Shown piece by piece: positions 3,376 to 24,799 of a DNA stretch of 25,920 nucleotides. Numbering within the stretch: the first letter of the stretch is position 1; each line of letters opens with the position of its first letter. Source of the DNA: a virus. A model generated the notes under the pieces. It was not told the origin of the DNA. It searched no databases and saw only the letters and a list, made by a program, of their open reading frames with translations. Location of the stretch: IMG/VR virus record IMGVR_UViG_3300037117_000081, positions 1 through 25,920 of that record, one strand, 5' to 3'. The position numbers and the translations under genes are program-made.

Positions 3376-5517
3376 ATGGCCAAGATCGACGAAGCCAGGG
3401 CAAAAGCCGATGTTCTACGCAAGCAACTGGCACAACTTGATAGGCTCACCGGACAAACTGACCTCCGCGAGCGAGAAGCAGCCCGCAAGCGGACCGAGCG
3501 CGCGGCCGTCAAGACGGTCACTATTCATGAGTGTGAGGACAGAGCCAGACGACTCAGGCTGGAGGCCGATGATGAAGCCTGGCTTATGTGGTATTTCGCG
3601 CCCGAGAGTGGCAGCGAGGCGCCGTTCACCTACGAGTTCGCGGGCCAGCAGCGAACGATGATCAAGGCAATCGGCGATGCGATTACGTTCGGAGACGACA
3701 AGGCGTTGGCCGCGTCTCGCGGTGAAGGGAAAACGATGATCTTCGAGAGGTTGACGCTCAAGTACACGCTGGCGGGCGTGATCAAGTTTTCCGTGCTGTT
3801 CGCCGCGACGGGGTCCGCCGCCCAAGACTCGCTCGAATCCATCAAAGCCGAGCTTGAATGCAACGTCCGGCTGCTGGCCGACTACCCGGAGGTGTGTGAG
3901 CCCGTTCGAGCGCTAGAGAACACGCCGAATCGTGCGCATTATCAGCTAGTAAGCGGCAGGCGGTTCGACACTGGCGAAGAGTTCGAGCGAGTATCGTCGG
4001 GGTTCTCGTGGTGTGGGCACGAAATCTACATGCCCAAAGTCCCCGGCGCGCCTGCGGCCGGCGCCATCATTGCCACTCGCGGGCTGGACTCTGCCATCCG
4101 TGGCATCAAGAAGAAGGGCCGGCGCGTCGACCTGGCCGGCATCGACGACCCGGACACCGAAGAATCCGTCCGCAGCCCTGAACAGGCCCAAAAACTTGAG
4201 GATCGGATCGAGCGGGCCATCGCCGGACTTGGCGGTCAGCAGCGCCGCGTCGCTCGCGTGATGCTCACCACGATCCAGAATCGCACGTGTGTATCCCACA
4301 AGTTCACCGACCCGCTGCAAAAGCCGTCATGGAACGGCCTGCGGATGCGATTCCTGATTACACCGCCAGAGCGCACGGACCTTTGGGAAGAGTACGTTCG
4401 TTTGCGTCAAATCGACTGGCGCGCCGGCACGACGGCAGCCCATGACTTCTACGTCGCAAACCGTGAAGAGATGGAACGCGGCGCCGAGGTGGCCAACCCG
4501 AACCGCTTCACGGCGCGGCAGATTTCGGCCCTGCAATTCTACTATGACGAAGTCGCCAGGCTGGGGCCCGAGGCGGTGGCGACGGAGCTTGATAGCGATC
4601 CGCCGGAAGAAGAAGGGCCGCAAACGTCGGGGATCACGGCGGCGCTGGTGGAAAGCCGAACGAACGGCCTTGAGCAGCGGACCGTGTCCGTGGATGAGCA
4701 TGTACTGGTCGCAGCGATCGACCTTGGAAAATACGCATGTCATTGGGTCGTGCAATCCTGGCTTCCGCGCGCCGTCGGTCTCACGGTCGACTACGGAGTG
4801 CAGGAAGTCGTCGGGACCGGCCACGGTGACGATCGTGTCGCCGTCAATCGAGCGATCTACAACGCGCTCATGGCGTGGCGCGACGACCTGTTGCGAATTC
4901 CCTATGCCGACATCGACGGCCAAGAGCACCGCATTCAATTGGCCATGATCGATTCTGGAGATTTCAGCGAAGCGGTTTACCAGTTTGTCCGCGACGTGGG
5001 CGGACTCCCCTTCGTTGCAGCCAAGGGCACCGGCGATGACAAGTTCCGAATGGGTGAGGAGTCCGAAGATCGCAAGCTGTTCGATCATTGCTACGCGAAG
5101 CATCTGATCAATGATGGCATCTGGCTCTACAACTTGGACACCAATCACTGGAAGCACTGGCTTCACGACCGTTTTTTGACCCCGACGTTCAACGGCGACG
5201 GCACGTTTAGGGACGGTTCTCTCTCGATTTGGTCGCCGGGCGTGCCCGGACAACACCATTCATTCGGTCGCCATCTTGTCGCCGAGCAGTGGCAAGAGGA
5301 GTTTATCGAGGGCAAGGGCTGGGTCCGCGGCTGGAAGAAGCTCAACAAGAACAATCACTGGCTCGACGCTTCATACATGGGCTGCGCGGCGGCCGGCGTG
5401 AAGGGCGTCAAGCTGCTCGCCGACGTGCGACGGCCAGCGCCACGGTCGAGCAGGCCAGCGAATCGGTTTCAGTCACCTGGCGGCGTACCCTACATGATTA
5501 CACAGAGGAGCGCATAG
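3376..5517 (+). CDS. terminase large subunit
   Basis: The DNA-packaging motor, 713 aa: an N-terminal ATPase that threads DNA through the portal and a C-terminal RNase-H-fold nuclease that cuts it. The Walker A is ASRGEGKT (113-120). The Walker B is VDLAGIDDPDTEE (251-263), with the DD pair at 257-258. Nuclease acidic residues are seen in AAIDLG (D449), AMIDSG (D526) and HWLDASYMG (D664). An HHSFGRHLVAEQW stretch precedes the last acid. The first 60 residues are a charged coiled-coil-like helix that could contact a small subunit. It follows the XRE gene by 19 nt and heads the packaging/head module, with the portal some 1.9 kb downstream. Length and order fit the lambda gpA-like group, though the sequence is divergent. 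Confidence 0.9.
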   Translation: MAKIDEARAKADVLRKQLAQLDRLTGQTDLREREAARKRTERAAVKTVTIHECEDRARRLRLEADDEAWLMWYFAPESGSEAPFTYEFAGQQRTMIKAIGDAITFGDDKALAASRGEGKTMIFERLTLKYTLAGVIKFSVLFAATGSAAQDSLESIKAELECNVRLLADYPEVCEPVRALENTPNRAHYQLVSGRRFDTGEEFERVSSGFSWCGHEIYMPKVPGAPAAGAIIATRGLDSAIRGIKKKGRRVDLAGIDDPDTEESVRSPEQAQKLEDRIERAIAGLGGQQRRVARVMLTTIQNRTCVSHKFTDPLQKPSWNGLRMRFLITPPERTDLWEEYVRLRQIDWRAGTTAAHDFYVANREEMERGAEVANPNRFTARQISALQFYYDEVARLGPEAVATELDSDPPEEEGPQTSGITAALVESRTNGLEQRTVSVDEHVLVAAIDLGKYACHWVVQSWLPRAVGLTVDYGVQEVVGTGHGDDRVAVNRAIYNALMAWRDDLLRIPYADIDGQEHRIQLAMIDSGDFSEAVYQFVRDVGGLPFVAAKGTGDDKFRMGEESEDRKLFDHCYAKHLINDGIWLYNLDTNHWKHWLHDRFLTPTFNGDGTFRDGSLSIWSPGVPGQHHSFGRHLVAEQWQEEFIEGKGWVRGWKKLNKNNHWLDASYMGCAAAGVKGVKLLADVRRPAPRSSRPANRFQSPGGVPYMITQRSA

Positions 5518-5519
5518 CG

Positions 5520-5804
5520 ATGGCACACGAACTGACGATCTACAGTGAGCACTGCAAGTCATGCAAGGGCGCCAAGTCGATCGACAACCCCGCATGGGGT
5601 AAGTTCGTCGCCGGCTTGAGCGCTACAGAACTCTCGGCGGGCGTAAAGAGCGACATACCGCAGAAGATTCCCTGCCCGGAATGCAAGGGGCTCGGGGTCA
5701 AGATGAACGATCACTTTTGGGAACTACGCACGTTGTTTAAGGCGGCCGATTTACTAGACCAGAATAAGGAACCGATGAATGAACAGGAAACGACCCGAGT
5801 TTGA
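5520..5804 (+). CDS. small zinc-finger-like phage protein
   Basis: A 94-aa protein. It has two DnaJ-like CxxCxG knuckles (C12/C15 in CKSCKG and C52/C55 in CPECKG) about 40 residues apart, enough for one zinc site. The frame is open further upstream inside the terminase gene, but the ATG at 5520 with GAGGAG nine nt upstream, two nt after the terminase stop, is clearly the start. Its 3' end overlaps the next gene by 26 nt. It may be a terminase-associated or DNA-binding accessory protein; position is the only hint. Confidence 0.65.
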   Translation: MAHELTIYSEHCKSCKGAKSIDNPAWGKFVAGLSATELSAGVKSDIPQKIPCPECKGLGVKMNDHFWELRTLFKAADLLDQNKEPMNEQETTRV

Positions 5805-6168: not shown

Positions 6169-6885
6169 CTAAGTCGAAAAATGGTTTGTTGAGTTTGGCA
6201 CGCTCGTTGTGGCGTCGAGATGATCTTTCATTTTCGTCCAGTCGCCCGCGCTGCCATTATTCTGCTTCCAACGCGAGCCAGTATGTACCTGATACCAAAC
6301 CCGGGCTGATTCAAAACAAAAATCATTCTCTTTGGCAACCTTCGCTGACCGAACGCGAGGTAGCCCGAGTGCTTCTCGTAGAGCATTGAAAGTTTCAACT
6401 CCGAGTGCAATTACGATTTTCGGTCTGATGATGCTGATTTGCGGCAACGCAAAATCGCGCGCGGCTCTGACCATGTGCTCTCGCTTTATTCGAGAACTTG
6501 CATTGCCACGCTTGATGAAGGGGAATAGATTCGTGGCGTAAACGTCTGAAAGCGAAAGGCCCAGCGATTCTCTTAGCAGTTCTTTGAGTTTGCGGTTTGT
6601 AGGCCAGTTTTCATCATGTCCAAGGTCAGCACGATCCGGCTTGAATGGTCCGCGTAGCTCGTCGTCGCAGCTCCAATCTTGGAGCATCACAAACACCTCA
6701 GAATCGACGTTGCACGCCGACTGCGTATAAGGCGAAACGAAATCGCGCTCGTATTTGCCGCAGTGGTAGTCGCCAATGCAGTAATAGCCGTCTAGCTTCT
6801 CGTTCTGCCGTTTCCGTGCGAGGGCCAGAAGCAATCTCTGTTTTTCCGCCCTTATGTCGGGGGTTCCATCTGGTGCTTCGTGCAT
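6169..6885 (-). CDS. uracil-DNA glycosylase superfamily protein
   Basis: A 238-aa protein. VFVMLQDWS (64-72) sits where this superfamily has its G-x-D/E-P water-activating motif. It is followed by PTNRKLKELLRESLGL (95-110) and VYATNLFPFIK (115-125), the characteristic beta strand ending in Asn. A helix and the strand IIRPKIVIALG (152-162) follow. The C-terminal HTGS (201-204) corresponds to the DNA-intercalating HxS/T motif. Family members excise uracil or related damaged bases. The gene is inverted relative to the late operon, between terminase-associated and head genes, and its DNA looks less GC-rich than its neighbours. This is a moron-like insertion; it may protect phage DNA or counter uracil-based or base-modification defence (inference). 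No clear SD is visible. Confidence 0.65.
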   Translation of the reverse strand: MHEAPDGTPDIRAEKQRLLLALARKRQNEKLDGYYCIGDYHCGKYERDFVSPYTQSACNVDSEVFVMLQDWSCDDELRGPFKPDRADLGHDENWPTNRKLKELLRESLGLSLSDVYATNLFPFIKRGNASSRIKREHMVRAARDFALPQISIIRPKIVIALGVETFNALREALGLPRVRSAKVAKENDFCFESARVWYQVHTGSRWKQNNGSAGDWTKMKDHLDATTSVPNSTNHFST

Positions 6886-14047: not shown

Positions 14048-14087
14048 GGGGGGCCGCGCGATGTGCGTGCGGCTCCCCATTTTTTTT
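14048..14087 (+). terminator. intrinsic terminator directly upstream of the tail-tube gene
   Basis: The arms 14048-14060 and 14066-14078 pair over 13 bp with two G-U wobbles and a 5-nt loop, followed by A and eight T (14080-14087). This is a textbook rho-independent terminator on the plus strand. Only 13 nt separate the T-run from the ATG at 14101, too few for a new promoter, so tail genes must be expressed by read-through or antitermination. Confidence 0.8.
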
Positions 14088-14100
14088 AAGGGCCAGCAAC

Positions 14101-15036
14101 ATGACGGTTTACTCCCCGCTGCTCAAGCAACGCCGCATTCTGGCCGCGAAGATCGAAACCACCGTCGGAACGGACGCCACCCCCAGCGCTTCCGACGCGG
14201 TATTCAACATCTTCGACGCGACGATCGACCCCGACATCGCGTTCGAGCAGCGCGAACGGCAAACGAGTTTCTCGCCGCTGAACGGCACGGTCGGACTCTA
14301 CAAGGGCACTTGCAAGTTCAAGACGGAGTTGATCGGCGGAGCGACGGACCCCGCTTGGATGACGGTATTCATGCCGACTTGTGGATGGGTCGCCAGTTCT
14401 CACGTCTGGTCACCTCAGACCAACGCGCCGGGCGCCGGCGGCGTCAAGACGCTCACCATCAGCGTCTACGAAGATGGCACGCTCAAAAAGCTGGTCGGCG
14501 CGATGGGCAATTGGGAAATGACGATGAATGCCGGCCAAAGGATCATGATCGAGTTTAGCTATCAGGGCGTGTGGGTAGCCCCGGTCGATGCGGCGTTGAT
14601 TACGCCGACGAGCATCACGACCGCGCCGCTGCTTTTCAAGTCGTCGGGCCTGCTGATCGGCGGTTCGTGGATTCCGCGCGTCAGTCAGTTGACGCTCAGC
14701 GCCGGCAACGACGTGCAGATGCGCGAGGATTCCACCGGCTCGGGCGGCCTTCTGTCGGCCTACATCGCTGGGCGGCGCATGACGGGCAAGTTTGACCCGG
14801 AAGCAACGACCGTGGCTCACAACGACGCCTACGGACAGTTTTTGGCCGGCACGCAACAGAGCTTGGCGCTCGCGCTGGGCACGACCGGCAACGCCATTGC
14901 GATCGCGGCCCCGGCGATGCAGATTTCCAAGCCCACCGAAGGCGACCGGAACAAGCTGCAAACCGATCAGCTTGAATTCCAACTCAACGGCTCCAGTTCG
15001 GCCGGCGACGACGAAGCAACGATCACCAACAGCTAA
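14101..15036 (+). CDS. major tail tube protein (lambda gpV position)
   Basis: A 311-aa protein. The N-terminus (LLKQRRILAAKIETTVGTDATPSASDAVFNIFDATIDPD) is a recurrent opening of phage tail-tube proteins. The body alternates strands and Gly/Thr turns (YKGTCKFKTELIGG, KTLTISVYEDGTLKKLVGAMGNWEMTMNAGQRIMIEFSYQGVW), the beta-sandwich tube fold. Residues about 175-300 repeat this style and end with a strand-rich segment (LQTDQLEFQLNGSS). Monomers stack as hexameric rings around the tape measure. AAGGG lies eight nt before the ATG, immediately after an intrinsic terminator. It stands in the slot of lambda V (246 aa). Confidence 0.78.
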   Translation: MTVYSPLLKQRRILAAKIETTVGTDATPSASDAVFNIFDATIDPDIAFEQRERQTSFSPLNGTVGLYKGTCKFKTELIGGATDPAWMTVFMPTCGWVASSHVWSPQTNAPGAGGVKTLTISVYEDGTLKKLVGAMGNWEMTMNAGQRIMIEFSYQGVWVAPVDAALITPTSITTAPLLFKSSGLLIGGSWIPRVSQLTLSAGNDVQMREDSTGSGGLLSAYIAGRRMTGKFDPEATTVAHNDAYGQFLAGTQQSLALALGTTGNAIAIAAPAMQISKPTEGDRNKLQTDQLEFQLNGSSSAGDDEATITNS

Positions 15037-15046
15037 AGGACCAACG

Positions 15047-15334
15047 ATGGCGCAAGACAAGCACGGCAACGAGCTGAAAGCGGGCGACAAAGTGTTGTTC
15101 AAAGAGGCGTTGCATGTCGTGCGCAACACCTACTCGGGTGCGTTTCACGACGTAGCGATTGTCTCGCCAGAGTCAGACGCCGGAAGCGCATTCGGCGTCG
15201 ATTCGCGCGTGTTGGAACTGAATGACTCCGCTGCAACGCTCGATCTCAACCCGGACGGCACGCCGAAAACTTTTGTCACCGGCGAAATGAGCCAAAACAC
15301 CGAGGCGGTCAATGCACCGTCCGATCAAACCTAA
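15047..15334 (+). CDS. small beta-rich protein of the tail operon
   Basis: A 95-aa protein. The frame opens earlier inside the tail-tube gene, but AAAGGA six nt before the ATG at 15047 fixes the start. Residues 1-60 (GNELKAGDKVLFKEALHVVRNTYSGAFHDVAIVSPESD) read as a small SH3- or KOW-like barrel with two turns; the C-terminal third is polar and probably flexible. It lies between tail tube and the G-like chaperone, where lambda has no gene. It might decorate the tail tube or modulate assembly; no family was recognised. Confidence 0.6.
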   Translation: MAQDKHGNELKAGDKVLFKEALHVVRNTYSGAFHDVAIVSPESDAGSAFGVDSRVLELNDSAATLDLNPDGTPKTFVTGEMSQNTEAVNAPSDQT

Positions 15335-15353
15335 CCACGATTCGAGGATACCC

Positions 15354-15827
15354 ATGCCCCGCTGTTTGCACCCAGACGACACTTTCCCAATTGTTCTCAA
15401 AAGCGACGAGCATTTTCCGCTCGCTGAGCAGCCCTTTTTCAGCTTTCGCGCCCTGTCGATTCTCAAGTGGCGCAGCGCGATGAAGATCATCCAGATGATG
15501 GAGAACCTCGATACCGAAAATCCCGAGAACGTGGGGCCGGCGATCGACGCCATCTGCGAGGTCTTGCGAATGGGCTTGGTCGGCTGGGGGAACATGCTTG
15601 ACCACAACGTTGCGGAGGGTGCGGAGCCGATCTGGATTCCTTATGACCCGACGAAGCTCGATGACTTGATCGATTTGGGAGAAGCGATGGAGTTGATGAA
15701 AAAGATGATGGATGCCTGCCAGGTCACGCCCGCGGATAAAAAAAAATTAGGATCGCAGCGTACATCCGCACGCGCAGCCTCTGTAGGTCATGCACGCAAC
15801 GGTGCGTCGACCCGCCAACGGAGGTGA
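15354..15827 (+). CDS. tail assembly chaperone, gpG-like
   Basis: A 157-aa zero-frame product. Residues 1-131 are a compact acidic helical protein (FFSFRALSILKWRSAMKIIQMMENLD, GPAIDAICEVLRMGLVGWGNML, LDDLIDLGEAMELMKKMMDACQ) typical of the chaperones that coat the tape measure before tube assembly. GAGGA five nt upstream selects ATG 15354 over an in-frame ATG at 15312. After the A9 run (15738-15746) the zero frame continues as a basic, low-information tail to the TGA at 15825-15827, while the -1 frame carries a Cys-rich sequence. It lies directly before the tape measure, like lambda G/GT. Confidence 0.7.
   Translation: MPRCLHPDDTFPIVLKSDEHFPLAEQPFFSFRALSILKWRSAMKIIQMMENLDTENPENVGPAIDAICEVLRMGLVGWGNMLDHNVAEGAEPIWIPYDPTKLDDLIDLGEAMELMKKMMDACQVTPADKKKLGSQRTSARAASVGHARNGASTRQRR
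15738..15746 (+). other. candidate -1 frameshift site (A9 run)
   Basis: Nine consecutive A form three zero-frame Lys codons, giving the heptamer A-AAA-AAA at 15740-15746. The -1 frame is closed by TAA at 15737-15739 and is open from 15740 to 16090, so the only place where ribosomes (or slipping RNA polymerase) can enter it from the zero frame coding for the chaperone is at or after this run. A TTAGGATCGCAGC stretch follows. A downstream pseudoknot was not established. Confidence 0.65.
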
Positions 15828-16090
15828 TGTGGGTAGAAGTTCCGTGCTCAGGCTGCGACGGACTGGGCTGCGACGAATGCGACGGCCGCGGGCATTTTTT
15901 GCTTACCGAGTGCCCTGTGAAAGGCATCGACGACGACTTGCAAAATGCCTTTGCCATCGCGGACTTGTTCTTCGAGGGTATATCGCCCGCCCCCGGTGGC
16001 TCGTTGGATCAAACCAAGTGGTTTATGGATTTCTCTACGCGGATGCGGTCCGAAGAAAACCGAATCAACGCGGCGAAAAACGAGAAGTAA
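15740..16090 (+). CDS. frameshift extension of the tail chaperone (gpT-like part), zinc-knuckle
   Basis: Read in the -1 frame from the A9 run, this adds 114 residues, giving a fusion of about 245 aa. The extension begins IRIAAYIRTRSLCRSCTQRC and continues WVEVPCSGCDGLGCDECDGRGHFLLTEC. The eight or more Cys include CxxC and DnaJ-like CxxCxG knuckles. The first CxxC lies upstream of the GTG/ATG at 15824-15829, so initiation there would remove half of a likely zinc site; this favours frameshifting. The C-terminal half is helical (FAIADLFFEGI, WFMDFSTRMRSEENRINAAKNEK). In lambda, the T part of GT recruits tail-tube subunits. It ends 3 nt before the tape measure. Confidence 0.65.
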   Translation, partial: KKIRIAAYIRTRSLCRSCTQRCVDPPTEVMWVEVPCSGCDGLGCDECDGRGHFLLTECPVKGIDDDLQNAFAIADLFFEGISPAPGGSLDQTKWFMDFSTRMRSEENRINAAKNEK

Positions 16091-16093
16091 GTC

Positions 16094-17956
16094 ATGCCTA
16101 ATGCGGCGAACACATTACTGCTCGGGGCGAGAGATTCGGCCTCCGACATCCTCAAGAGCTTTTCCGCGAATGCCGCGAAGTATTTCAAGGCTGTGGGGAA
16201 CGAAGCCCAGATAATGACGAAAGAGGCGTCGAACATTGCAAAAGTTCTTGTTCCGATTGCCAATCTCGCGCGGCTGGCACTGGCCGGCGTGGCATCGTTC
16301 CTCAAGATATTTGTTCTCGGCGGCCAGCTCGTCAAAGAGGCTTGGAACGGCGTTGCCGCAATCCTCGGGCTGATCGGAACGCTGTTCAACATCCTCAAGT
16401 CGATTCTGGTTGGAATTGTTTCGATCCTCAAGGCGGTCGCCAATGCCGTTCTGGCGGTGTTTCAGACGCTCGCCAGTGCCGTCGGCTCGCTCGTCGGCCA
16501 TATTCATTCCCACCTCGGCACCATCGCCAAGTATGTACTCGGCACGCTGGCGATTGTCGGCGGTGCGTTCGTGGCTGCCGCGCTCGCGGCGGAGCATGCC
16601 TGGCAGCCCGTGGCACAGATCCTCGGCCGGCTCAAGATCGGCGGCGCCGGAAACCTTCTCGGCGACTTGCGCACGTTCGCGCTCGAAACATCGCGCGGGC
16701 TCGTCATTTCGACCAAGGAAGTGCTTTCGCTGGCCGAGGCTGGATTGCACCTGAAGGTGCCCGTCGACCAGCTCAAGGCCATGACCGCGGCCTCGATCGG
16801 CCTGGCGTCGGCGCTGGGCATCTCGGCTGCGGAGGCGATGGACAAGCTGGCGAATGCCACGGGCCCGGCTCTGGAAAAGCTCAAGGCCCTGGCCCAACAG
16901 GGCATCGACCTGGCCGGCGAAAAGGTCAGCACGTTCACCGGCTTGTGGCAGCAGTTCAAGAACGTGCTGGCGAATAACGCCCAAGTGCTGGGGGAAAAGA
17001 TTGCGCCAGGCATCGCCAAGATCGTTGACTCGATCCGGCCGCTGCTAGGGCTGCTGGAATCGACCGGGGATGGCTTCGCCAATGTGTTCAACATGATTGC
17101 CGACAACCTTGCGCCGATTCTCACAAAGCTCGTCGGCTGGTTCGCGGCGGCTTTTGCCGGCTTTGTCGCGTTCGGCCAGACGGTTACACAAAACTGGACA
17201 GCAACGTGGGCGCTAGTCGAAGCCCTGTTCGCTTATTACGTCGAGACGATCAAAAACATTCTTGTCAATTTCTTCACGGTCACATTGCCGGCTTATTTCA
17301 ACTGGTTCAAGGATTTCGTCGCGGCGTGGCTGCCGGTGCTAGGCGAGGGCTTGAAGGTCGGCTTCGTCAACCTGTTTAAGAATCTTTTGGATATCGCCAA
17401 GATCGGTTGGGGCGCGCTCGTTTCCTACATCAAGGGCGACCAGCTTGCCGCTGATATCCAAATGCAATTTCTCGGAATCGGTTGGAGCCGCAGCCTTGCC
17501 GAAGGCTTCAAGAGCGCCATCACGCCCGAATTGCCCACGATCGCTGACCGCGTTGCGACTTCGTTGGAGAAGGCACTTGCTAAACGCGCCGCGACCATCG
17601 GCATCGCGTTCGCCCGCGTCTTTGGTTTCAACTTCGACAAGCAGCTCGAAGGCTTCAACGAAATTCTTAATAAGAAGGGTGGCGACAAGCTCAAAAACGA
17701 GATTGGCAAGCTCAAGGCCCTGGCCGGCGCCAGTTCAGGCCACAACAACACGAGCACTCTGCTCGAAAGCCGAACCCTTGTCGGCCCGGTGGGCGGTGGC
17801 GTTTCCCCCGAGGTCAAAGTGCTCCAGAAAATCGTTGCGATTGTGGCCGGCGCTAAGCAAGGGATCGAAGACGCCGCCAAGCAAAAGGCCGATGCGGACC
17901 GCGCCCTGCTCGGCGCTGTTCAGGGCGCGAACGTGGGAGTTTTGGACATCAACTAA
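16094..17956 (+). CDS. tape measure protein
   Basis: A 620-aa protein. It is rich in Ala/Leu/Lys with long amphipathic and hydrophobic helices, especially 47-165 (repeated AVANAVLAVFQTLASAVGSL-like segments) and 330-420, and no enzymatic motif. At about 0.15 nm per residue it would set a tail near 90 nm. Hydrophobic stretches are usual in tape measures and may insert in the host membrane on ejection. The C-terminal 100 residues are polar and include a Gly/Ser/Asn linker. It follows the G/GT region, as lambda H does. Its stop overlaps the next start (TAATG). It is shorter than lambda gpH (853 aa). Confidence 0.85.
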   Translation: MPNAANTLLLGARDSASDILKSFSANAAKYFKAVGNEAQIMTKEASNIAKVLVPIANLARLALAGVASFLKIFVLGGQLVKEAWNGVAAILGLIGTLFNILKSILVGIVSILKAVANAVLAVFQTLASAVGSLVGHIHSHLGTIAKYVLGTLAIVGGAFVAAALAAEHAWQPVAQILGRLKIGGAGNLLGDLRTFALETSRGLVISTKEVLSLAEAGLHLKVPVDQLKAMTAASIGLASALGISAAEAMDKLANATGPALEKLKALAQQGIDLAGEKVSTFTGLWQQFKNVLANNAQVLGEKIAPGIAKIVDSIRPLLGLLESTGDGFANVFNMIADNLAPILTKLVGWFAAAFAGFVAFGQTVTQNWTATWALVEALFAYYVETIKNILVNFFTVTLPAYFNWFKDFVAAWLPVLGEGLKVGFVNLFKNLLDIAKIGWGALVSYIKGDQLAADIQMQFLGIGWSRSLAEGFKSAITPELPTIADRVATSLEKALAKRAATIGIAFARVFGFNFDKQLEGFNEILNKKGGDKLKNEIGKLKALAGASSGHNNTSTLLESRTLVGPVGGGVSPEVKVLQKIVAIVAGAKQGIEDAAKQKADADRALLGAVQGANVGVLDIN

Positions 17957-21396: not shown

Positions 21397-22287
21397 ATGT
21401 CACCCATCGGACCAAGTAGCTGTTGCTGCCCAAAACACGTCTACTCGAAGCAGGGCGATGCCAAGATCATCAAGTGTGACGTGGCCGGAAATATCGCATG
21501 GAGGTCGGCCGTGCCTTATGGCTCGTTCGATATGGATCGAATCGGCGGCACGCTCTATGCAATGGGCGGAAGCCACAACATTGATGCCCTCGACCCGTCC
21601 GGTACGGCTACGACGATTGCGACCTACTCGGGAACCTACACGGGAACCGAATTGCGCGTCTGCAACGCAAATGGCACCGTGTTTTTCATCGCGTCATCGT
21701 CCGGTCACAATGCGCATTTCCTGTTTAGCATGGCGCTTAACGGGTCGGGCCTCGCGTTGCTGTGCGACGTGAGCACATTCACCGGAAACAATTGCACGGT
21801 TCAAGGAATTGCCCAGCACGCGGACACCGGGAAAATTTACGTCACGGCCTGGTTTGCCACCATCTCCAGTCTCGACGCTTACATTCTCGAAATCGCCGCT
21901 GGCGGTGGATCGGCAACGACGCTACTCCATACGACGAGCTCTAGCTCCGTTTACGCGGCGCCAAAGACGCTCGATATTGATTACGCCGGCAGTCTGCTTT
22001 GCTGGGGGCAAGATACGACTTTCGGTTTAGCCGGCAAGCTCCATACGTGTAGCCTAACCGGAAGCGGCCTAGCGACGTACACCTACGGCGACACGGTTCA
22101 AATGGGAAGCCTGCAAGTCAATAATCTCGACAGGCTGATTTACTATTTCCTCGGCACGTCCGGGGGCACCGGGCGCACGATCACGACCAGCGGTTCCAGC
22201 GACACGCAATTTGCAAACGCGATTCAAAACGGCGCCGGGCGCCTCGCCGAAGATTGGCCGACTGATGGACACTATGGCACGTCCTAA
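21397..22287 (+). CDS. beta-propeller-like tail protein
   Basis: A 296-aa protein. It begins SPIGPSSCCCPKHVYSKQGD, where a Cys triplet may bind metal or form disulphides. It then shows repeated blocks of about 40-45 residues with the pattern small-beta, Gly-turn, L-x-Y/V-A/T-x-W/G, D-x-x-G/S-G (DRIGGTLYAMGGSHNIDALDPSG; TELRVCNANGTVFFIASS; ADTGKIYVTAWFAT; DYAGSLLCWGQDT; NLDRLIYYFLGTSG). This is the signature style of NHL/YWTD-type propellers, about six blades, a shape used in carbohydrate or protein recognition. It directly follows the previous stop (TAA then ATG). It is probably a tail-fibre or adhesin subunit. Confidence 0.5.
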   Translation: MSPIGPSSCCCPKHVYSKQGDAKIIKCDVAGNIAWRSAVPYGSFDMDRIGGTLYAMGGSHNIDALDPSGTATTIATYSGTYTGTELRVCNANGTVFFIASSSGHNAHFLFSMALNGSGLALLCDVSTFTGNNCTVQGIAQHADTGKIYVTAWFATISSLDAYILEIAAGGGSATTLLHTTSSSSVYAAPKTLDIDYAGSLLCWGQDTTFGLAGKLHTCSLTGSGLATYTYGDTVQMGSLQVNNLDRLIYYFLGTSGGTGRTITTSGSSDTQFANAIQNGAGRLAEDWPTDGHYGTS

Positions 22288-22585
22288 GCTGGGCGAACCA
22301 ATCCCCGCCCTTTACTCTCTGCCGTTGCTGAGGCAGCTCAAGAACTTCACGGTGGCCGCAATCGGCCATACGTTGAACGGCGCGCCGACTTGCACCCAAG
22401 AGCAAATCGACGCTCGCTATGCGATCTGTCGCGGATGCCCGCTGCATCGGCCAGACATGCAAAACCCGGCAGTTGGAATTTGTACGCACCCCGAATGCGG
22501 ATGCACGGTCACGCGGGAGGATCGCTTTTTGAGCAAGCTCGGGTGGGCCGACCAGGATTGCCCGCTCGACGAGTGGCCGAAGTAA
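22265..22585 (+). CDS. small zinc-binding phage protein
   Basis: A 106-aa protein with a C-terminal set of Cys residues: CRGCPLH, GICTHPECGCTV and QDCPLDEW. The order CxxC ... C..CGC ... CP..xW is that of a widespread family of small phage zinc-ribbon proteins of unknown role (similar in pattern to DUF6171). The ATG at 22265 overlaps the preceding gene by 23 nt; a second in-frame ATG lies three codons on, and neither has a clear SD, suggesting coupled translation. It ends the rightward structural module. Confidence 0.6.
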   Translation: MDTMARPKLGEPIPALYSLPLLRQLKNFTVAAIGHTLNGAPTCTQEQIDARYAICRGCPLHRPDMQNPAVGICTHPECGCTVTREDRFLSKLGWADQDCPLDEWPK

Positions 22586-22897: not shown

Positions 22898-23914
22898 ATG
22901 GCCGAGAAAGTCACGAGCATGTCAGAACTGGCCGCGATGGGCGGAAAGGCCAGGGCCTTATCCCTAACGCCAGAGGAACGCCAAGACAGCGCTAGAAAGG
23001 CAATTGCCGCGCGATGGAACAAGGACATCCCCCTGGCTACCCACGGGTCGCCGGACCGCCCGCTCAAGCTAGGTGAAGTGGAAATCCCGTGTTACGTTTT
23101 GGCCGATGGTCGCCGCGTTCTGTCTCAGCGCGCCATGGTTAGCGCGATTGGCATGGCGCGCGGTAGTAGCGGTGGAAAGGGTGGTGACCGTCTCGCCAAA
23201 TTCGTAGCTGGTGATCGCCTTAAAGACTTTGTAACTGAACAGTTACGCGCGGTGACCGAGAACCCGGTAAAGTTTCGTACTCCAAAGGGCAATCTTGCCT
23301 ATGGATATGAGGCGACAGTGTTGGTTGATATTTGCGATGCGGTCCTTTCGGCTCGCAAAAAAGGGCTCTTGCAAAAACAACAACAAGACATCGCGGATCA
23401 ATGCGAGGCGCTCGTTCGTACCTTTGCAAAAGTCGGAATCATCGCGCTAGTCGACGAAGTTACCGGATACCAAGAGATACGCGATCGGGAAGCTCTCCAG
23501 CAAATTCTGGACAAGTATTTGCGAAAAGAATTCGCCGCTTGGGCTCGGGCCTTCCCGGATGAGTTTTATCGTGAGATTTTCCGGCTTCGGGCCTGGAACT
23601 GGCAGGGCATGAAAATCAATCGGCCGCAGTGCGTTGCGGCATATACGAAGGATTTAGTCTATGCCCGCTTAGCGCCTGGAATCCTTAAAGAACTGGAGGC
23701 CAGGAATCCAGTCACGACAGCCGGGCGACGAAAAGCCAAGCATTATGAATGGCTCACAGAGGATATTGGACACCCGGCTCTAGCCCAACATTTGCATGCT
23801 GTAGTCGGCCTCATGCGGGCGGCGGATGAATGGAATCAATTCATGCGAATGATGAACCGTTCGTTCCCAAAACGTGGTGATACGCTCCAATTGGAACTAT
23901 TCAACCGCGATTAG
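22898..23914 (+). CDS. P63C-domain protein with N-terminal GGKARA module
   Basis: A 338-aa protein. Residues 9-40 are a small basic helical module (ELAAMGGKARALSLTPEERQDSARKAIAARW) also found in the convergent 23901-24149 protein. Residues 60-185 (IPCYVLADGRRVLSQRAMVSAIG, NLAYGYEATVLVDICDAVLSARKKG) are the usual N-terminal part of these proteins. The P63C domain follows (about 186-285: DEVTGYQEIRDREALQQILDKYL, WARAFPDEFYREIFRL, RPQCVAAYTKDLVYARLAPGILKELEARNP). P63C proteins are widespread in phages and plasmids and biochemically obscure. AAAGGAA precedes the ATG. The gene has its own palindromic control region. It overlaps its convergent neighbour by 14 nt. Confidence 0.85.
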   Translation: MAEKVTSMSELAAMGGKARALSLTPEERQDSARKAIAARWNKDIPLATHGSPDRPLKLGEVEIPCYVLADGRRVLSQRAMVSAIGMARGSSGGKGGDRLAKFVAGDRLKDFVTEQLRAVTENPVKFRTPKGNLAYGYEATVLVDICDAVLSARKKGLLQKQQQDIADQCEALVRTFAKVGIIALVDEVTGYQEIRDREALQQILDKYLRKEFAAWARAFPDEFYREIFRLRAWNWQGMKINRPQCVAAYTKDLVYARLAPGILKELEARNPVTTAGRRKAKHYEWLTEDIGHPALAQHLHAVVGLMRAADEWNQFMRMMNRSFPKRGDTLQLELFNRD

Positions 23915-24149
23915 ACCACCGTGCCGCCGCCGCCTTTTTTGCGATCGCTTTGCGTTTGGCAGGCGTCAATGATTCGGCTCGCGCCTTGCCGCCCTTGATG
24001 CCGCCCAGCTTGCCGAGCGCGACGGCGGCAGGGTTCTTGGCCCTGGCAACCTTCTTAGCCTTGGGCGGCTCGGCATCCGGCGTTACGGCGTCTAAAACGG
24101 ATCGTGCAAGTTGTTGAGTGTCGCGCTGATTGCTGTTGCGCTTCGTCAT
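23901..24149 (-). CDS. small basic GGKARA-module protein of the Fic operon
   Basis: An 82-aa protein. A polar N-terminal half rich in Lys/Ala/Pro (PPKAKKVARAKNPAAVALG) leads to LGGIKGGKARAESLTPAKRKAIAKKAAAARW (48-78). This is a recurrent bacterial module that reads as two basic helices after a Gly turn, possibly nucleic-acid-binding. The start codon overlaps the Fic stop (ATGA), so both are translated together; GGGA lies upstream. The 3' end overlaps the convergent P63C gene, which bears the same module at its N-terminus. Its job is unknown; a third component or regulator of the Fic unit is plausible (inference). Confidence 0.65.
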   Translation of the reverse strand: MTKRNSNQRDTQQLARSVLDAVTPDAEPPKAKKVARAKNPAAVALGKLGGIKGGKARAESLTPAKRKAIAKKAAAARWSNRG

Positions 24150-24799
24150 GTTGTTCCCGTTGCTGCACTATGGACTGATACCAACTGTACAGCCAACTGG
24201 CCGGCGATCAGCTTCTCCATTTCGGAGACATCGAGCATCCCGCCAGCCCAGGCGGCATCAGCAGCGTCCAAGGCTTCATAGTACGGTTGCCGCTTGGCAA
24301 CAATCTGCTCAGGAATGGTCACTGTGCCCGGCAAACGATAGCCAAGCCGCACGCATAATGCCAAGTACGATGTCGCACGCGATGTCCTGCCATTTCCGCC
24401 TGCGAAGGGATGAATCCAATTAATCCGCCACATTAGATATGCGGAGACATGGATTGGCGTCTTGTCGGTCGCGCCAGTGGCGTAATCACACATTTGCTCG
24501 ACGAGATCAGCGACCTCCTCGGGCGGCGGTGGCTGGTGACTGGTGCCTTCGATGCAGACGGGGCCAGTGCGGTAATTTCCAGCGCACGTATAAATTTCTT
24601 TGATTGCCAGTCGTTGAAATTTCTGGATTACGGATGGACGCAAGGCCAGCGTCCCATTAGACGAGTCGACGAGGCGCAAGACCTCATCGAACTGAATAAG
24701 GCCGTTCCTGGCCTCTAAAGCGGCTTTTTGAACTGGGTCTGTGAATAGCTGGTGTGAATCCGGCCTGCTATCCCTCTGTACGTCCGTTCGCCGCATCAT
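24146..24799 (-). CDS. Fic-family protein (probable AMP-transferase, toxin-like)
   Basis: A 217-aa protein. The core motif HPFAGGNGRTSR (130-141) matches HPFxxGNGRxxR in full, including the catalytic His and the anion-binding GNGR. The flap region is AGNYRTGPVCIEGTSHQPPPPEEV (73-96). Fic enzymes with an intact motif usually transfer AMP from ATP to Ser/Thr/Tyr of target proteins; phage and plasmid ones often behave as toxins. No internal inhibitory [ST]xxxE[GN] motif was found, so inhibition should come from a partner, and the overlapping upstream gene (24768-24968) is the natural candidate. AAGGG lies five and eight nt before two consecutive ATG codons at 24799 and 24796. It is followed by the ATGA-coupled basic protein. 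Confidence 0.85.
   Translation of the reverse strand: MMRRTDVQRDSRPDSHQLFTDPVQKAALEARNGLIQFDEVLRLVDSSNGTLALRPSVIQKFQRLAIKEIYTCAGNYRTGPVCIEGTSHQPPPPEEVADLVEQMCDYATGATDKTPIHVSAYLMWRINWIHPFAGGNGRTSRATSYLALCVRLGYRLPGTVTIPEQIVAKRQPYYEALDAADAAWAGGMLDVSEMEKLIAGQLAVQLVSVHSAATGTT

Follow-up and report, generated by a model that had tools for sequence, protein, structure and literature searches.

A very probable G/GT frameshift and a cysteine-rich T family, not catalogued before, in a tailed phage and its relatives

In phage lambda, the G/GT slip site is the heptamer G_GGA_AAG. The lambda locus lies between the genes for the tail tube and the tape measure, its two frames overlap, and a -1 shift near the end of G yields two products, G and GT; this -1 frameshifting is widely conserved in long-tailed phages (review PMC5009743). 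In tail chaperones, frameshifting amounts to 6-7% (PMC3711429). As for A-rich sites, A_AAA_AAG is highly shift-prone in E. coli (review PMC5009743), and A_AAA_AAA in another gene gives 10% frameshifting with 7 A's and ~40% with 9 A's, runs of more than 7 A's being known to support transcriptional slippage (PMC3711429). The DNA analysed here, called the window, is the 25,920 nt virus contig IMGVR_UViG_3300037117_000081 of IMG/VR. It contains two overlapping frames located between the genes of the tail tube protein and of the tape measure protein, and upstream of them the terminase, portal, head protease and major capsid genes follow in the usual order. Judged by this gene order, the window gene occupies the place of lambda G/GT. 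It differs from its lambda counterpart in the slip site, A_AAA_AAR, and in a cysteine-rich T part with eight invariant cysteines. A previous reading of the sequence without database searches had suggested that a zinc-binding T-like domain would be an unusual version of GT. This holds in comparison with lambda, but a related T domain with four cysteines occurs in a few isolates.

These isolates came to light when phages with related tail tubes were examined for T frames. In JP1, P24 and RcZahn (Agrobacterium, Alteromonas and Rhodobacter phages), T is found at the same place, behind an in-register -1 site, and has a CxxC..C..C pattern. Unlike in the window, the slip site is A_AAA_AAC and four cysteines, instead of eight, are conserved, probably as one zinc site. 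In RcZahn (L145), the in-register A_AAA_AAC lies at the G/T overlap at positions 3951-3957, and the annotation lists T as a gene of its own; in P24 (L146), it lies at the G/T overlap at 3763-3769, and T is unannotated. A scan with the four-cysteine T gave 27 more loci, 20 of them distinct, with A_AAA_AAC in register in 19 of the 20, the last one being a partial match. The C-terminal parts of the eight-cysteine and four-cysteine families are homologous (G.LP..GG..DQ; hhalign probability 96%, E 1e-9, 48 columns); the N-terminal knuckles are not confidently aligned. With eight cysteines and A_AAA_AAR, the window family falls outside the four-cysteine class, and profile comparison makes its T a sister family of the latter rather than a member. 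The eight-cysteine T therefore belongs, as a single branch, to a wider T superfamily whose branches vary in cysteine number and in the final base of the heptamer. Synechococcus phages S-LBS1 and S-CBS1, Rhodobacter phage RcWaterboi and Thiobacimonas phage vB_ThpS-P1 also have a tail tube of phrog_290, a G-like gene (matching phrog_313 in S-LBS1), an overlapping -1 frame and then the tape measure gene. However, their T belongs to another family, without conserved cysteines, and their slip sites are, for instance, A_AAA_AAC or G_GGA_AAC.

Table 1. Features of the G/GT locus and its neighbours in the window.
Feature	Position	Strand	Remarks
Tail tube protein gene	14101-15036	+	Pfam Phage_tube_2 PF18906; phrog_290
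Small ORF between tail tube and G genes	15047-15334		
Shine-Dalgarno-like GAGGA preceding gene G	15345-15349	+	read from sequence; putative function
Gene G-like tail assembly chaperone	15354-15827	+	frame 0, 157 aa
TAA closing the -1 frame directly 5' of the slip site	15737-15739	+	
A9 run	15738-15746	+	only A run of at least 8 in the window
Slippery heptamer A_AAA_AAA	15740-15746	+	in register with frame 0
T-like extension	15740-16090	+	-1 frame, 116 aa + stop; stop TAA 16088-16090
First knuckle, C15-xx-C18-xxx-C22 of the extension	15782-15805	+	invariant 39/39
GGAGGTGATG, Shine-Dalgarno-like, overlapping the frame-0 TGA and the in-frame ATG 15827	15820-15829	+	possible, poorly spaced re-initiation site
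Second and third knuckles, C36-xx-C39 and C44-xx-C47	15845-15880	+	invariant 39/39
Eighth invariant cysteine, C58	15911-15913	+	invariant 39/39
Tape measure protein gene	16094-17956	+	620 aa; phrog_1272 E 3e-9

The features of the locus are collected in Table 1. Frame 0 starts with ATG 15354, runs through ...GCG GAT AAA AAA AAA TTA GGA... and ends with TGA 15825-15827. Near the end of G, an in-register heptamer of the X_XXY_YYZ type, which reads as two AAA codons in either frame, opens the -1 frame. The GT fusion would join 15354-15746 to 15746-16090 (131 + 114 = 245 aa). The CRSC knuckle (extension codons 15-18, 15782-15793) is encoded 5' of the first ATG, GTG or TTG of the -1 frame, since the first possible starts in this frame are GTG 15824 and ATG 15827. 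The sequence-only reading had taken the A9 run as the hinge between G and the extension, with a -1 frame that is shut exactly at 15737-15739 and then stays open over 15740-16090, a 245-residue fusion, and one CxxC knuckle upstream of any internal start. Sequence and frame translation bear out all of this to the base. The sole other A/T homopolymer of at least 8 in the window is a T8 run at 14080-14087, shortly 5' of the tail tube start.

Elsewhere in the window, several genes deserve mention. Between the terminase and portal genes, 5517-5801 (+) encodes a small protein with CKSC...CPECKGLG, weakly DnaJ/BSD2-like but below cut-off, which is a second probable zinc protein. Among the head genes, but on the other strand, 6169-6885 (-) encodes a uracil-DNA glycosylase superfamily protein, and 22211-22585 (+) encodes a cysteine-rich protein of 124 aa (CRGCPLHR...CTHPECGCTV) without a Pfam match. 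A Fic/DOC family protein (24149-24799, -; PF02661, E 7e-18) is followed by a basic protein of 82 aa without a family match (23901-24149, -), and the two possibly form a toxin-antitoxin-like pair. The pattern GGKA..LTP..R...KA...RW of the 82-aa protein recurs at the N-terminus of a P63C domain protein (22898-23914, +; E 2e-32).

Relatives were collected by scanning IMG/VR with T. The window protein recovered 23 loci, a first profile 80 and a wider profile 80, for a total of 119 loci, some contigs being counted twice. After T had been clustered at 90% identity, 39 representatives remained, and pairwise T identity is 30 to 87% among the first 31 of them. Many loci were recovered by a C-terminal peptide pattern, so that the slip site was no part of the search. 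A_AAA_AAA or A_AAA_AAG stands in register exactly at the start of the conserved T frame in all 39 representatives and in all 119 loci, with A_AAA_AAA in 26 and A_AAA_AAG in 13 of the representatives. In the G genes of the 39 representatives, the heptamer occurs 39 times at the slip point and 0 times elsewhere, over 4558 codon steps. Because of this, and because the A9 run is the sole A run of its length in the window, the arrangement is far beyond chance. The run varies from A6 to A9 among relatives (A6 in 2/39, A7 in 12/39), yet its phase with respect to the codons is fixed (P ~1e-7 if random, from the 19 representatives in which the phase could fail, their independence being only roughly true). 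In 12 of the 39, a stop just 5' of the slip site closes the -1 frame, typically one of the GATAA type that the window has too. Frame 0 ends 7 to 163 nt past the slip site, often within 7-28 nt. Just after the slip, variation at the three codon positions of the T frame is 0.36, 0.17 and 0.58, position 3 being the most variable and position 2 the least, which is the pattern expected if the T frame is coding. The homologue alignment that the sequence-only reading had proposed as a check thus finds both the A run and the -1 frame kept in 39/39 non-redundant relatives. No relatives were found by searching with the G protein of the window alone, no T was found in two scans of cellular genome contigs with the T profiles, and tblastn with four T sequences against 50,697 phage records gave no convincing eight-cysteine match.

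Taken as a whole, the locus is very probably a G/GT pair of a tailed phage, expressed by -1 slippage of a minority of ribosomes on A_AAA_AAA, with a T part that probably adopts a two-zinc fold with eight cysteines. Most ribosomes would finish at the stop of G, giving the short chaperone. The remaining minority would slip back by one base on the heptamer, where two lysine tRNAs can re-pair on AAA AAA, and would continue in the -1 frame to produce GT. By analogy with lambda, the G part may coat the tape measure protein whereas the T part may recruit the tail tube subunit, in a putative chaperone role. The site, its in-register conservation, the conserved coding -1 frame and cysteines, and the gene order are read directly from the DNA, whereas for the window phage itself we infer the ribosomal mechanism, the binding of zinc and the chaperone role. 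Shared by this phage and dozens of relatives, the mechanism is almost certainly ribosomal -1 frameshifting, and comparison across the family makes a strong case for it. It would account at once for the fixed phase, for slip sites of the A6 and A6G kinds, and for the presence of stem-loops downstream of the slip site. Runs as short as A6, together with the fixed phase, favor ribosomal slippage over both transcriptional slippage and re-initiation.

The stem-loops were sought as the sequence-only reading had suggested, and were found in the family but not in the window. At 7-47 nt past the slip site, the RNA folds with a mean of -13.6 kcal/mol, as compared to -11.5 kcal/mol in synonymous codon shuffles, and 0 of 300 shuffles was as strong (z about -5 across sequences). 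Within genes, the same segment has a mean z of -1.16 (se 0.20), the strongest of 14 windows along T, the 13 others ranging from -0.53 to +0.39; windows along G range from -0.85 to +0.04. Most relatives therefore carry a predicted downstream stem-loop that goes beyond codon-level expectation and is under selection. No single consensus stem was found for all relatives: alifold predicted none, and a hairpin fixed at i+j=50, considered as a common element, did no better than codon shuffling; the stem-loops are thus lineage-specific. L063, L082 and L105 have very strong hairpins in two parts (-21 to -26 kcal/mol, ~10-65 nt past the slip site), clearly unlike the shorter hairpin of the RCGEL group. 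In the window, on the other hand, the downstream RNA forms a weak stem (z +0.9), and the putative 3' stimulatory structure of most relatives is not seen. The longer A9 run could lessen the need for such a stem. By eye, no Shine-Dalgarno-like stimulator is apparent in the 36 nt 5' of the slip site.

These data bear on transcriptional slippage, which the sequence-only reading had left as a possibility. RNA polymerase would add one A in some transcripts, which would then be read straight into the T frame. The A9 run of the window is long enough for polymerase slippage, and the weakness of the window stem also fits. However, the A6 and A7 relatives keep the same arrangement although slippage is not expected on A6, polymerase slippage has no need of a run in fixed phase with the codons, the downstream stem-loop is selected in the family, and the sister four-cysteine family uses A_AAA_AAC, with A6 as well. 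The family thus has runs too short for polymerase slippage, although the window taken by itself has A9. With A_AAA_AAG at a third of the representatives, the relatives favor the ribosome, and transcriptional slippage as the explanation of the locus is unlikely, even if some of it may occur in the window with its A9 run and weak stem.

Considerably less probable is the view that G and T are two genes, T being translated after termination and re-initiation at GTG 15824 or ATG 15827. At 15820-15829, GGAGGTGATG overlaps the stop of G and offers a Shine-Dalgarno-like GGAGG as well as a TGATG overlap, which would suit such a mechanism. Nevertheless, only 2 nt separate GGAGG from the ATG, the methionine of ATG 15827 is not conserved in relatives, and a start at this place would lose the invariant C15, C18 and C22 as well as the conserved KKIRIAAYIR. 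Moreover, the frame-0 stops of relatives are widely scattered past the slip site, about half of 31 representatives, window included, encode the first two knuckle cysteines 5' of the first ATG, GTG or TTG in the T frame, and none of the 39 representatives has an independently started second gene. The preference for slippage over re-initiation that had been drawn from the window alone is thereby strengthened. Finally, homopolymer runs such as A9 are error-prone, but the idea that a sequencing or assembly error hides one continuous frame can be set aside, since 119 loci from many metagenomes, on independent contigs with 6 to 9 A's, keep the same -1 relation, and not one of them is a single-frame G-T fusion.

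Ribosomal slippage would thus yield two proteins sharing the G part. The model of the window G (pLDDT 86) is confident up to about residue 122, the tail read in frame 0 only being at ~62. Beyond residue 131, the residues of this tail are not conserved, whereas T is. G had been described as an acidic, helical, G-like protein; the predicted fold is mixed alpha/beta and not purely helical. The window G itself has no significant family match. Among its homologues, that of one relative (L002) scores 21.3 bits against the cut-off of 21.1 for Pfam Phage_TAC_4 (PF08748), a family matched at E<0.1 by 2 of 31 G homologues, and the tail assembly chaperone families phrog_313 and phrog_8233 are each matched weakly by 7 of the 31. 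Foldseek with the G model returned nothing convincing.

In the T part, C15, C18, C22, C36, C39, C44, C47 and C58 are invariant in 39/39 sequences, as are G51, P83, G86, G87 and Q91. From the spacing of these conserved cysteine sets, which is of the metal-binding kind, T is probably a two-zinc domain with four cysteines per zinc. The T model (pLDDT 85.9, pTM 0.74) is confident and combines an N-terminal helix and C-terminal helices with a cysteine-rich core that contains two short strands. Neither Pfam nor PHROGs yields a good match to T. Against solved structures, sequence comparison gave only weak matches that look like an effect of cysteine composition, such as PheRS alpha, and Foldseek and VIA-align with the model gave no convincing one; a missing structural match does not make the fold new. 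The knuckle spacing resembles CxxCxGxG of the DnaJ CXXCXGXG zinc domain (PF00684), but the likeness is limited to the motif (12.4 bits for L023, cut-off 32.7) and membership was rejected. The literature search turned up no paper on a T domain that binds zinc or is rich in cysteines; the KS10 paper, considered as a precedent, has both words but for different genes. The eight-cysteine T family is therefore previously uncatalogued, and apparently absent from the isolates and libraries searched.

We judge the G/GT frameshift of the locus to be real; its cysteine-rich T represents a family that had not been catalogued. The frameshift itself is the textbook part; the eight-cysteine T family and the strictness of the slip site are the new detail. 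Such a gene may be missed or wrongly split by gene finders. The 39 representatives also form a varied set of natural frameshift cassettes that share one design, A_AAA_AAR followed by variable stem-loops. The T part of GT evolves fast, T families are hardly catalogued, and little is known in general of the contact between T and the tail tube. The present T, whose core is rigid and probably stabilised by zinc and whose motifs (G.LP..GG.LDQSAW) are invariant, would be suited to structure work. It is conceivable, though we lean slightly the other way, that a widespread group of uncultivated phages uses a GT with a two-zinc T, of a family for which Pfam, PHROGs and the isolated phages searched gave no match, in which zinc or the redox state of the eight cysteines would be needed to recruit the tail tube, making tail assembly metal-dependent.
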